Assembly: GCA_024220525.1 (NCBI GenBank)
Contig: JAMYWO010000041.1
Location: 33,574 to 56,858, forward strand
Source: Cochliopodium minus
Taxonomy: Eukaryota; Discosea; Himatismenida; Cochliopodiidae
DNA length: 23,285 nt
Direction of reading: 5' to 3'
Positions within the stretch are counted from its first letter, which is position 1; each line of letters starts with the position of its first letter. Below are positions 11,013 to 15,537 of this stretch, piece after piece. Position numbers and translations under genes: made by a program. The notes beneath the pieces are model-generated. The model worked only from the letters and a program-made list of their open reading frames with translations, made no database searches and was not told the origin of the DNA.

Positions 11013-14000
11013 TTAATTTTGAGGACTTTCATCACCAAATTGATCATAAAAGGTCTTTATAGAAAAGCCAATCTTTTTTACATTCTCTTTTGTTTGTTTT
11101 TCTTTTATGGTTTTTGGTTCATTGTCATTAAACTTGGTATCATTACCATTACCTTCATCATTGGCATCTTCTAATTTAACAGATCCGACAGTTTTCTCGG
11201 GTTCTATTTATCATTAGAGAAAAAAAAAAATCAATCTTTTTTTAAAAATTTCTCTTTTTTTTTTTTTTTTTTACCTTGACCTTTCTCATCAGAAAAGTTT
11301 TGAAAAAATTGGTTGGTGTTGTTTTTCTTTGGAGGAGGAATCTTTGCACCCTTCTGCTTTTGTTTGGGAAACTTCTTCAAAGGTACTTTTTGAACGTTGT
11401 TCTTGAGAACAGAAATGGTGGAAGCATTTTTGATTTCTTTGATGACTTCTTCGTTTTCAGGAACAACAAATCCCTTTTTTTCTTTGCGCTCTAGTTGCCA
11501 AGGAGCCAAACCAGACGGATCTTTCTCAGAAGGGGGAGGTGATTCCCTGTTTTTGGGTTGGTCGATTGTTACACTACTTCTTCTCTGTTCGAATTCCAAC
11601 TTCCAAGGAGGTATCGTTGTCGATGTTGATTGTTCGTCCGAAAGGTATCCTTCAAAATTTTTAAAGATTATTTATAATTTCAAATTATTGGTAAATTGGA
11701 AGGATTTAATATTTATCGATTAATAAAAAAAATAATTAATAAAATTTCCTTTAAAACATGAATTATTGGAATTTTAATGTTTTTTTTTAAAAAAATTTAA
11801 CCTTTTTAAAAAAAAAATTAATTTAATTTTATATGATTTAAAATAATAGATCGATAGTTATTTAATTAATTCTTAAAATATGAATAAATAGAATAAAATA
11901 AGAGTGAAATAAAAGTGTTATTAGGAATAAAGTGAATGGTTTGAAAGAAATAAAAAAAAAGGGGTGAACCTTTTTCCTCATTGGGAGGAGATCTCGGAGG
12001 AGACTTGAGAGGATTCTTGGGAGAATGCTTAGGGGAGTTGGGAGGCAAAGACTTGCGAGGAGAAAGGGAGGGAGGGCTGATGGAAATAGGCTTGATGTCA
12101 CGAGGAGCAAAGTCACCCTTCTTGACTTGCAAACCAACACCAGAAAGTCTCCTCTTCCACATGGGCTCCTCTTCACCAAGAACCATGTGATCATTCGAAG
12201 TGGTTTCGAATTGCATCGAATTTCTGTCTCCACTCTTGACAAAGTCTTGCAAGATTTGCACGGAGCCACGTTTTCCGTCCGAATCATTTCCGAGAACGAT
12301 CGATTTGTTTTCGTCTGAAACCACTTCTTGTTCTTCTACGAAAAGAACTTCGGAGATCTTTTGGGCTTCTTCGAGAGGGAGGAAGAGGTTTTGGATTTGC
12401 TTTGTGAAGTTTTGTTGGATGATCAGTCTTCTCATTTCTCCGAAAGGGGTGAGCTCATCGTTTTCGCATTTGAGAGAGTTTTTGATGATGAAGAATCTTT
12501 TCACTTTGGTGGTTTTGCCAAGATGGGTGGATAGAACCTTGTGGAAGGTGGGGGAGTAGAGGGAGGCCTCAACAGAGAGATTTTGTTTCTTTGCAAACAT
12601 TTGAAGGACGTCCCAGTCAGGCTCCACCAAAGCTACCAAGAAATCTTGATCACTTCCCAAAACCAAAGAGTTCAAAATGAAAGGGTTCTCCATGATGACA
12701 GATTCGATGGGAGATGGATATACTGCGGTTCCATCTTTCAAGGTAAACTTCTCTTCCAAAGTAGAATGTAAGACGAGAAAATCCTCATTGTCCAAACGTC
12801 CAAAATCATTGGTTTTCAACCATCCGTTCTCGATAGGGTTTGCCAAAGGGTTCTTGTAGTCGTAAATCATCCTTGCAAATACAGAGTTGCTTTTCAAGAA
12901 TATTTGTTTGGTGTGCTCCTCTCCCTCTTCTCCAAACTTGATGTCAACTCCCTTTGTAAGTTTTCCCACCGTCCCCTTTTTGTAATCTCTTGTGATGAAT
13001 CCGCACAATTCAGTTGAAGAATAAAGAGAAAGAATTTGCTTGTCAACATTCTCGAAATACTCCAAGACAGAATCACTCAAATGAGAACCAGTAGAGATGC
13101 AGAGTCTTGCATTATTAATTCCGACCGTCTTCAAATGGGAGATCTTTCTTGACTGACCTGTTTTAGAGATTTGGGACAGTGGGATCTTCAAACTAAGTGC
13201 GGAATAGAACTTTCTCCACAAAGAAGGAGTAGCCAAAATGATGCTGGCCTGACTTTGGTTCAACTCTTCGATGTTCGACTTAAAGTTTTCAGAGTTACCA
13301 AAGTAAACTTTACAATGATTAAAGAGAGGCAAGAACAAGTTTAAGATCTGGTTGTTGATGTGAGACAAAGACTGGAAGCAAAGCACTCGGTCTTCTTTGT
13401 TAATCTCATGCGTTGCCCCAAACCTATTTGCAGAAGAAAGAGCGCTGTCATGGGTAAATTCAAGACATTTTGGAACGGAGTGGGTGCCAGATGTGAAACA
13501 GTAAAAAGCGACATTACTTCCTTTGATTCCCATCAAATTTTCGTAAACCATCTTTTCGTACTTGACCGATTTATCTTTCTTTTGAGATTCCAAGAGCTCG
13601 CTCCATTTGTGGCTACGAATAGAGGTGTTGATGTCGAAATCTTGTATAGTAATGATATTTTCGACACTGGAACTGATTCGCGTAGATTCAAGCTTCTCCC
13701 AGCTCTTTTGATCAACGATCATCATGTGAGGACCTACCATGTCGAGTTTGTTCTTCAGTTTTTCGCCAGAATAATCCAAATGGAGACCAAAAGGTATGGC
13801 TCCAATGGTCATGCAAGCAAAGTAAGCAATCGCCCAAACGTTGGACTGTTTGCAAGCAATACAAACTCTGTCTCCCTTCAAAAGACCCACGTCAATAAGA
13901 GCAGAAGCTGCAGTGATGACTTGATCCTTGTAATTAGCCCAAGTGACAGAAGTGAACTCAGAGTTGGCCGATTTGAAAAAGTAAGCTACTTCATTGGGAA

Positions 14001-15537
14001 TTTCATACCCTAAACGAATCAACTTACCAGCTAAAGTGTCAGGAATAGATTCAGGATCTACATCTATTTGTTGTGAAGGAAGAGAAATTTCCACTTTTAT
14101 GTCTTCCTCATACTCATCTTCTTGGTATTCCTCTTCGCTTGAACTTTGATCGTCTACATGGATGTGATCCTTTTCAAAGTACTCAATCACATCGTCCTTG
14201 TGCTTGTTGTTATTAACAGGACCCAAAGTAGCTTTGTTTCCATCTTTGTTCACTTTGAAGTGTACGTATTCATCCAAACCGATCATGACTTTAACGAAAT
14301 AACTTTTGTCTGCTTCTTGTTCTCTGTAATTCACCGCTTCGAAGAGATCAGTTCTCTTACCCAAGACGTCTTCCACATCAAATCTCAAAGACTCCACCAA
14401 ACTCTGCATTTTACTATCAGCATACTCCGATGGTCCAAGATGTACCTTGTGCATGCTTCCTTCTCTCTTCAAACTTCCTCCCTTTTTAACACTGTCGACC
14501 CTCTTTAATTCCCTCTTCTCGGTCCTTTCTGATTTTTCGGGCGAACCTGCCATCTTTTTGTTCTTTTCTTCATTTTGGTTGTTGTTTACATTGCTTTCTA
14601 CCAACTGGCGTACTTGCTTGTTGGTTGTAGGAGAAGATTTGGTAACTTCCACAAGTTTTCTCACTTGTTTGTTTGGCTGTTCTGAAAACTTTTCAATCTT
14701 TTTAGGAGGCTGCTTAACGATCTTCTCCACAAATTTCTTTGGAGGCATGTTTTTGTAAGGCGGAGGATTCTTCGATTGGATTCTTCCTGTGGATTGGAAT
14801 GGTTGCTTTGGTTTAGGTCTGTACTTGGTATCTCCTATGATATCGTAATCATTGAAATCATCAATCTCTATCTCCTTATCTTCGAAATAGAGGCTTTCAT
14901 CATACTCTTCCTGTTGGCTTGATGATTCATCCTCACTTGATGACTCTTCCAATCTTTTCTTGTGTTTCTTCTCCCTCCTTTTTGGAGCTGTATATAGGCT
15001 TGTTATTGATTCTTCTACCTCTATATCTTGTGAGGTGAGATATTCTGGCTCTGTTGCTCTTTTTTTTAACAAATCATTTCCCCATGTTATATAGATCTTT
15101 GATCCTTCTCTATTCGTCACATACCAACTCTCAAATCCATTTTTGGAAAGATATCTTGTCAATGCTTGTTGATTTATGATGTATTGATGCCATTCTTTAT
15201 TTTCTTCAAATTCTATCAATACATGGAATTCTCCTCTTTCAGATGCTCTAAATACTTTATAAATTGTTTCATAAAATTGTATACTTTCAAATTTGATTAT
15301 TTAAATAATATTGTTAAATATTTTCTATAATAATACACAAACTTACAAATATTTATATTTACCTTCATTTATAATTGTATTTATAGATTGTTCTATGTAA
15401 TGATTTGTCCTTCTTTTGCATATATCAGTTAACTGTGCACCTTTAATTCATGAATTGACATTATATGAGGAATATTTAAATTGAAATAAGTCATAGATAC
15501 CCAAAGTTTTTTTCTTTTTTCCATTCGTTTTGCTCAT
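11013..15537 (-). CDS. Cystatin (stefin) domain fused to a degenerate acyl-CoA synthetase-like (ANL) module
   Basis: Exons 15501-15537, 15363-15440, 11970-15254, 11275-11649 and 11013-11203 splice in phase to 1321 residues. Residues 14-100 form an alpha/beta unit (RASERGEFHVLIEFEENKEW, then YLSKNGFESWYVTN) with no family I can name. Residues 100-300 are charged and disordered. Residues 312-400 match stefins: SLRFDVEDVLGKRTDLFEAV, then YFVKVMIGLDEYVHFKV, then KDDVIEYF. The inhibitory QxVxG reads QEADK (351-355). Residues 440-1000 are an AMP-binding fold closest to long-chain or bubblegum acyl-CoA synthetases. Its P-loop reads FTSGTHSVPKC (625-635), YSSTELCG is at 783-790, GWLKTNDFGRLD surrounds N854-D855, and LTPFGEMRR has E978 where the catalytic lysine belongs. 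The tail to 1321 is proline/serine-rich with repeated PxW motifs. Enzyme activity is doubtful; a binding or scaffold role is inferred. The start is an ATG in a short lysine-rich first exon. Confidence 0.85.

Follow-up and report, generated by a model that had tools for sequence, protein, structure and literature searches.

Stefins are known from textbooks as stand-alone inhibitors, and ANL domains as enzymes. Both folds are found in a single chain encoded by a gene of Cochliopodium minus, located in a stretch of 23,285 nucleotides (the window; positions 33,574 to 56,858 of contig JAMYWO010000041.1, assembly GCA_024220525.1). Stefin gene fusions as such are known, rare but reported, according to passages of PMC2784779. 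The stefin-chagasin of Bacteroides fragilis mentioned in the same passages is likewise a stefin in a gene fusion, but its partner is another peptidase inhibitor and not an ANL domain. The window domain is homologous throughout to stefin A and stefin B (cystatin type 1), down to the C-terminal YF, but is embedded in a chain of 1321 residues instead of forming a single-domain protein of about 100, and has lost both the QxVxG motif and the second hairpin. Similarly, the window protein features both subdomains of PF00501/PF23562 long-chain acyl-CoA synthetases, but shows 18-24% identity to ten public ligase relatives (P0003-P0012) and has lost the P-loop, the A5 Gly, the A8 Arg and the A10 Lys. 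The protein shares homology with both stefins and ANL enzymes, yet as judged from its sequence it lacks defining functional motifs of both. For this reason neither cystatin inhibitor nor acyl-CoA synthetase is a suitable name.

A stefin and an ANL fold in one exon

The gene and its main domains are the following.

11013..15537, minus strand: whole gene, five exons, product of 1321 residues, spliced translation reproduced
11970..15254, minus strand: exon 3, 3,285 bases, uninterrupted, encoding the stefin and ANL (acyl-CoA synthetase) domains
14176..14424, minus strand: stefin core (P0001 266-348), from PDB phmmer, stefin hidden Markov model (HMM) and AlphaFold2 (AF2)
12928..13998, minus strand: ANL N-terminal subdomain, PF00501, 146.7 bits, E 1.1e-42
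12382..12747, minus strand: ANL C-terminal subdomain, PF23562 (AMP-binding_C_3), 24.8 bits, cut-off 20.8
14455..15054, minus strand: linker 1, by composition an acidic half followed by a basic half
14047..14175, minus strand: linker 2, acidic, with 40% D+E in P0001 351-390

P0001 denotes the numbering of the window open reading frame (ORF). Both ANL subdomains score above the Pfam cut-offs within P0001 408-946, corresponding to residues 458-996 of the full-length product.

The earlier note on this DNA had described a five-exon gene with stefin and ANL in one uninterrupted 3.3-kb exon, and the model has been reproduced exactly, with correct coordinates. All five exons are joined at GT-AG borders, and the final base of the stop codon is 11013. 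The frame around exon 3 (11869-15300) is open for 1,144 codons without interruption. GC content is 0.407 in exon 3, and 13-22% in introns 1-3. The product is least certain in its C-terminal tail, because the intron 3 donor, GTTCACC, is atypical. The placement of stefin and ANL is independent of this donor, as both are within exon 3.

Of the two Pfam profiles proposed for checking the fusion, PF00501 matched and PF00031 found no match in the stefin region. The stefin was recovered by other means. The region matched 2oct in a phmmer search of the PDB (E 1.3e-7), and an HMM of stefins built without the window ORF scores the latter 48 bits, a value that none of 20,000 shuffles comes close to. The AF2 model of the region has a predicted local distance difference test score of 89.5, and features a helix and four strands. 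Homology to stefins (I25A) is therefore significant across the whole domain, despite the failure of PF00031.

Among 7,990 scored candidates, 15 proteins had E<=0.001, and one of these, P0002, has a stefin followed by an ANL, as in the window protein. P0002 (933 residues) is encoded by a 15-kb ENA contig and is 46% identical to the window protein. When the pair was used as search profile, only P0002 and one plain ligase were found among 7,984 scored candidates. The search of viral and GTDB contigs yielded 67 and 57 pattern stretches, respectively, and no relatives of the fusion. Stefin-ANL, N-unit (see below) or calponin-homology-ANL proteins were similarly absent among the matches listed in the open-licence PMC literature. 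The two protein searches and the literature matches listed agree with the statement of the earlier note, which knew of no described cystatin-ANL fusion.

Identity between the window protein and P0002 is 64% in P0001 20-80 (where the N-unit ends, with 33 further residues), 49% in the stefin, and 51% and 56% in the ANL. It drops to 33% in linker 1 (P0001 81-255) and 35% in acidic linker 2. Conservation of the domains and drift of the linkers argue against chimerism and decay, and the same domain order in P0002 speaks against an assembly chimera. The stefin-ANL fusion is confirmed.

Degenerated motifs in both domains

Motifs of interest in the two domains are located as follows.

14305..14319, minus strand: degenerate first hairpin, QEADK for QVVAG, one residue shorter, from alignments
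14233..14250, minus strand: shortened second hairpin, NKDGNK for the LP-bearing loop, from alignments
13465..13497, minus strand: broken P-loop (A3), FTSGTHSVPKC, from the motif alignment
12799..12819, minus strand: A7 motif, LKTNDFG, ribose-binding Asp retained, preceding Gly lost
12748..12771, minus strand: A8 hinge motif, LHSTLEEK, Arg lost
12427..12456, minus strand: A10 motif, ELTPFGEMRR, catalytic Lys replaced by Glu

The inhibitory wedge of stefins is made up of three regions, the N-terminal Gly, the QxVxG hairpin and the second hairpin, as stated in passages of PMC2784779. In both fusion proteins QxVxG is lost and its hairpin one residue shorter, reading EQ-EADK in the window and EE-DSGK in P0002. 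Their second hairpins are likewise shortened, and devoid of LP. At the position of the Gly preceding the helix, G is found in the window (HLGP) and N in P0002 (ILNP). A stand-alone stefin encoded by the same genome keeps QVVAG, and just downstream of it a second stefin-like exon with QVFAG was noticed (both at L028:2686-3381). The contact with proteases imagined in the earlier note is not sustained by these data.

ANL motifs have been compared in one alignment of 22 modules. The names and roles of the P-loop (A3), A5, the A8 hinge Arg and the A10 catalytic Lys are those we take to be current for the family. The A3 consensus TSGTTGxPKG is broken in both proteins (TSGTHSVPKC in the window, TYGTQSNSKC in P0002). 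A5 reads YSSTE in the window and YSLSE in P0002; the Gly is lost, and Thr-Glu is retained in the window, with Ser-Glu in P0002. The A8 Arg is replaced by T in the window and K in P0002, the A10 Lys by E and D. The public ligase relatives P0003-P0012 have the A8 Arg in 10 of 10 cases, and the A10 Lys in all but P0006. The A7 Asp is retained in both fusion proteins (TND in the window, TDD in P0002). This residue touches the ribose in ligand-bound ANL structures, according to passages of PMC3438747 that also cover the role of the neighbouring Gly.

The N-unit and its family

The most telling part of the protein is the one left unassigned in the earlier note, an N-terminal alpha/beta domain called here N-unit.

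15079..15504, minus strand: N-unit, alpha/beta domain (full-length residues 12-97), exons 1-3, common to loci C345, C65, C193 and C30

The N-unit spans about 90 residues, and is found upstream of the other parts at at least five loci of the genome, the window and the four just listed. A profile built without the window sequence scores the spliced window product 30.5 bits, a value attained by none of 20,000 shuffles; E is only 0.07 when the same profile is run on the unspliced exon-3 frame alone. The N-unit gave only weak, unused matches in PHROG (PHROG_3012, E 0.012) and Pfam (best 0.042), and no match in the PDB (best E 0.13). The predicted start of P0002 falls inside the N-unit, the C-terminal part of which precedes the stefin.

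An ANL lies on the C-terminal side of the N-unit at four of the five loci. The window gene is organized as N-unit, stefin, acidic linker and ANL. C345 encodes in one exon of 1021 residues an N-unit, an NmrA domain (PF05368, E 3e-15), an acidic linker and an ANL (PF00501, E 6e-41), to which 4-coumarate-CoA ligase (4CL) is the nearest solved structure. The same layout, read by eye from translated frames, is spread across several exons in C65, where the N-unit is 47% identical and the NAD(P)-binding domain was recognised by its likeness to C345. C30 features an N-unit, NAD_binding_10 (Pfam), a charged linker and an ANL. In C193 (L039:1907-5785), low-complexity sequence, charged and repetitive, extends for about 1,200 residues after the N-unit, and no ANL was seen by eye in the 1293-residue exon or in the subsequent minus-strand ORFs of at least 60 residues. 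Frames upstream of the C193 N-unit resemble acyl-CoA oxidase by eye.

The middle domain is NmrA or NAD_binding_10 at three loci, a stefin in the window and low-complexity sequence in C193. Since three relatives carry an NAD(P)-binding domain in the middle, the stefin occupies the place of that nucleotide-binding domain. C345, C65 and C30 are otherwise like the window gene in N-unit, charged linker and ANL with broken P-loop, though the C345 ANL is 4CL-like and that of C65 groups with it. The P-loop is broken in all four ANLs attached to N-units. The A10 Lys has disappeared from the window ANL, from that of C345 (alignment) and from that of C65 (by eye). C345 and C65 lack the A7 Asp, and C65 retains an Arg at A8. 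In C30, the Lys of A10 and the Asp of A7 are still present, along with an Arg at or adjoining A8. The presence of the N-unit at four further loci points to a family of sensors or scaffolds without enzyme activity, assembled in mix-and-match fashion.

Calponin-homology ANL loci and ANL trees

ANL modules, single or in tandem, are also found downstream of calponin-homology domains at loci C9, C106, C463 and C52. These loci are like the window gene in that they fall in the same supported group (see below) and have lost motifs in several modules, but they start with a calponin-homology domain, show no N-unit or stefin, and in C106 include FYVE fingers. L020/L021 (C106:14562-26484) is a candidate single gene with a calponin-homology frame, five tandem ANL modules and FYVE-type zinc fingers. 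Four of the five modules are nearly identical and devoid of catalytic motifs, and one open frame covers 3108 residues. L022 (C9:93465-99271), a putative single gene, has a calponin-homology domain, two ANL modules and then guanylate/adenylate-cyclase exons. The remaining loci are L023 (C463) and L024 (C52). At L025:3773-5431 an ANL C-terminal piece adjoins an open frame with LIM domains.

Ten modules of this genome were included in the motif alignment. C9_m1 and C52_m1 retain the A8 Arg and the A10 Lys; motifs are intact in the former, and the P-loop is slightly altered (YTPGTTGQSK) in the latter. C106_m1p retains the A8 Arg and a Lys at A10, the alignment stopping short of its P-loop, and C463_m1p has the A8 Arg but not the A10 Lys. 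Both residues are lost in the six second-type modules. The A7 Asp is lost in C106 m2-m5, C9_m2 and C463_m2.

Two ANL trees were built, the first with 10 calponin-homology ANL modules, the other, used for the approximately unbiased (AU) test, with 5. The ANLs of the window and P0002 pair as sisters (100/100). They share one supported group with the calponin-homology ANL modules and C30 (98/97 in the tree with 5 modules), in which their position is weakly supported (83/92, and 81/85 in the first tree). Both the window/P0002 pair and C30 have long branches. C345 and C65 stand apart from the group. Constraining window, P0002 and C30 together was not rejected (AU p 0.41), and a common origin of these ANLs is neither shown nor rejected. 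The shared layout may go back to a single ancestor whose domains were later swapped, or fusion may have occurred repeatedly.

Other features of the region and genome

The product tail carries three copies of a Pro-x-Trp-basic motif (EPMWKRRL, PPWKLEFEQRR and APWQLERKEKK; window 11275-12190). The PPWKxE tail repeat was considered as a common motif of the genome and rejected, as the strict DNA pattern was found once, in this gene. Neighbouring minus-strand frames encode Fcf1 (PF04900, 17269-17679) and THUMP (PF02926, 7436-7801) domains. An iron-only hydrogenase match (PF02906) lies at C1:398263-399345, and the organism may therefore have an anaerobic metabolism.

Discussion

The reading preferred here, for which we see about even chances, is that of a sensor or scaffold devoid of catalytic activity, in which the middle domain can be exchanged. 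The protein would be cytosolic, localised or oligomerised by the N-unit, with the charged linkers as flexible tethers. The stefin sheet may provide a docking surface for a protein partner, with no classic peptidase inhibition. The ANL would serve as switch or spacer, with no adenylation; as a ligand-responsive switch, it would bind adenylate, CoA or an acyl ligand and change the angle of its C-terminal lobe, with no chemistry. The signalling pseudoenzyme that the earlier note had envisaged is supported, at the level of sequence, by the disappearance of the P-loop, A8 Arg and A10 Lys from both known members.

The protein may alternatively be a purely structural scaffold, the ANL being a rigid spacer that binds no small molecule and the stefin an adhesive surface. 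We regard this as rather unlikely. The loss of the P-loop, A5 Gly, A7 Gly, A8 Arg and A10 Lys fits, and the motif-less tandem ANL repeats near calponin-homology and FYVE domains look like building-block use, but the A7 Asp missing from C106 m2-m5, C9_m2 and C463_m2 is kept in both stefin-ANL proteins. It is improbable that the stefin is a working inhibitor of papain-family (C1) peptidases, tethered to an ANL module that targets membrane or lipid. Homology to stefins is strong, the genome encodes C1 peptidases (28 exon-level matches), and the window copy still has one Gly ahead of the helix; however, both hairpins are degenerated and P0002 lacks the Gly, and these are the three regions of the wedge described in PMC2784779. 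An active ligase with unusual chemistry, regulated by the stefin, is slightly less credible still, because the A10 Lys is replaced and the P-loop broken in both copies, in spite of the PF00501 score, the C-terminal subdomain, the A7 Asp and the A5 Thr-Glu (Ser-Glu in P0002). A decaying gene or assembly chimera, already disfavoured, is very improbable: motifs are lost in both domains, but the 1,144-codon frame is intact, domains are better conserved than linkers, and the same fusion occurs in independent DNA.

Taking up again the non-catalytic sensor or scaffold, a broader proposal is made tentatively, as possible but short of probable. The family may represent a new class of eukaryotic modular receptors, made of an N-unit, a sensor or docking domain that can be exchanged, a charged linker and a catalytically dead ANL. 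Dead ANL folds would switch conformation with the state of lipid, CoA or nucleotide, and the stefin would have been brought in as the partner-binding module where relatives have an NAD(P)-binding domain.

Two folds thus persist in a single chain after loss of their functional residues, and do so in two proteins only 46% identical, within a family whose middle domains differ. If the ANL binds a ligand, this would be a receptor type derived from a metabolic enzyme; if it binds none, the protein would clearly exemplify how two famous folds can be put to new use as scaffolding. In both cases, the five loci of one genome and P0002 make up a testable set.
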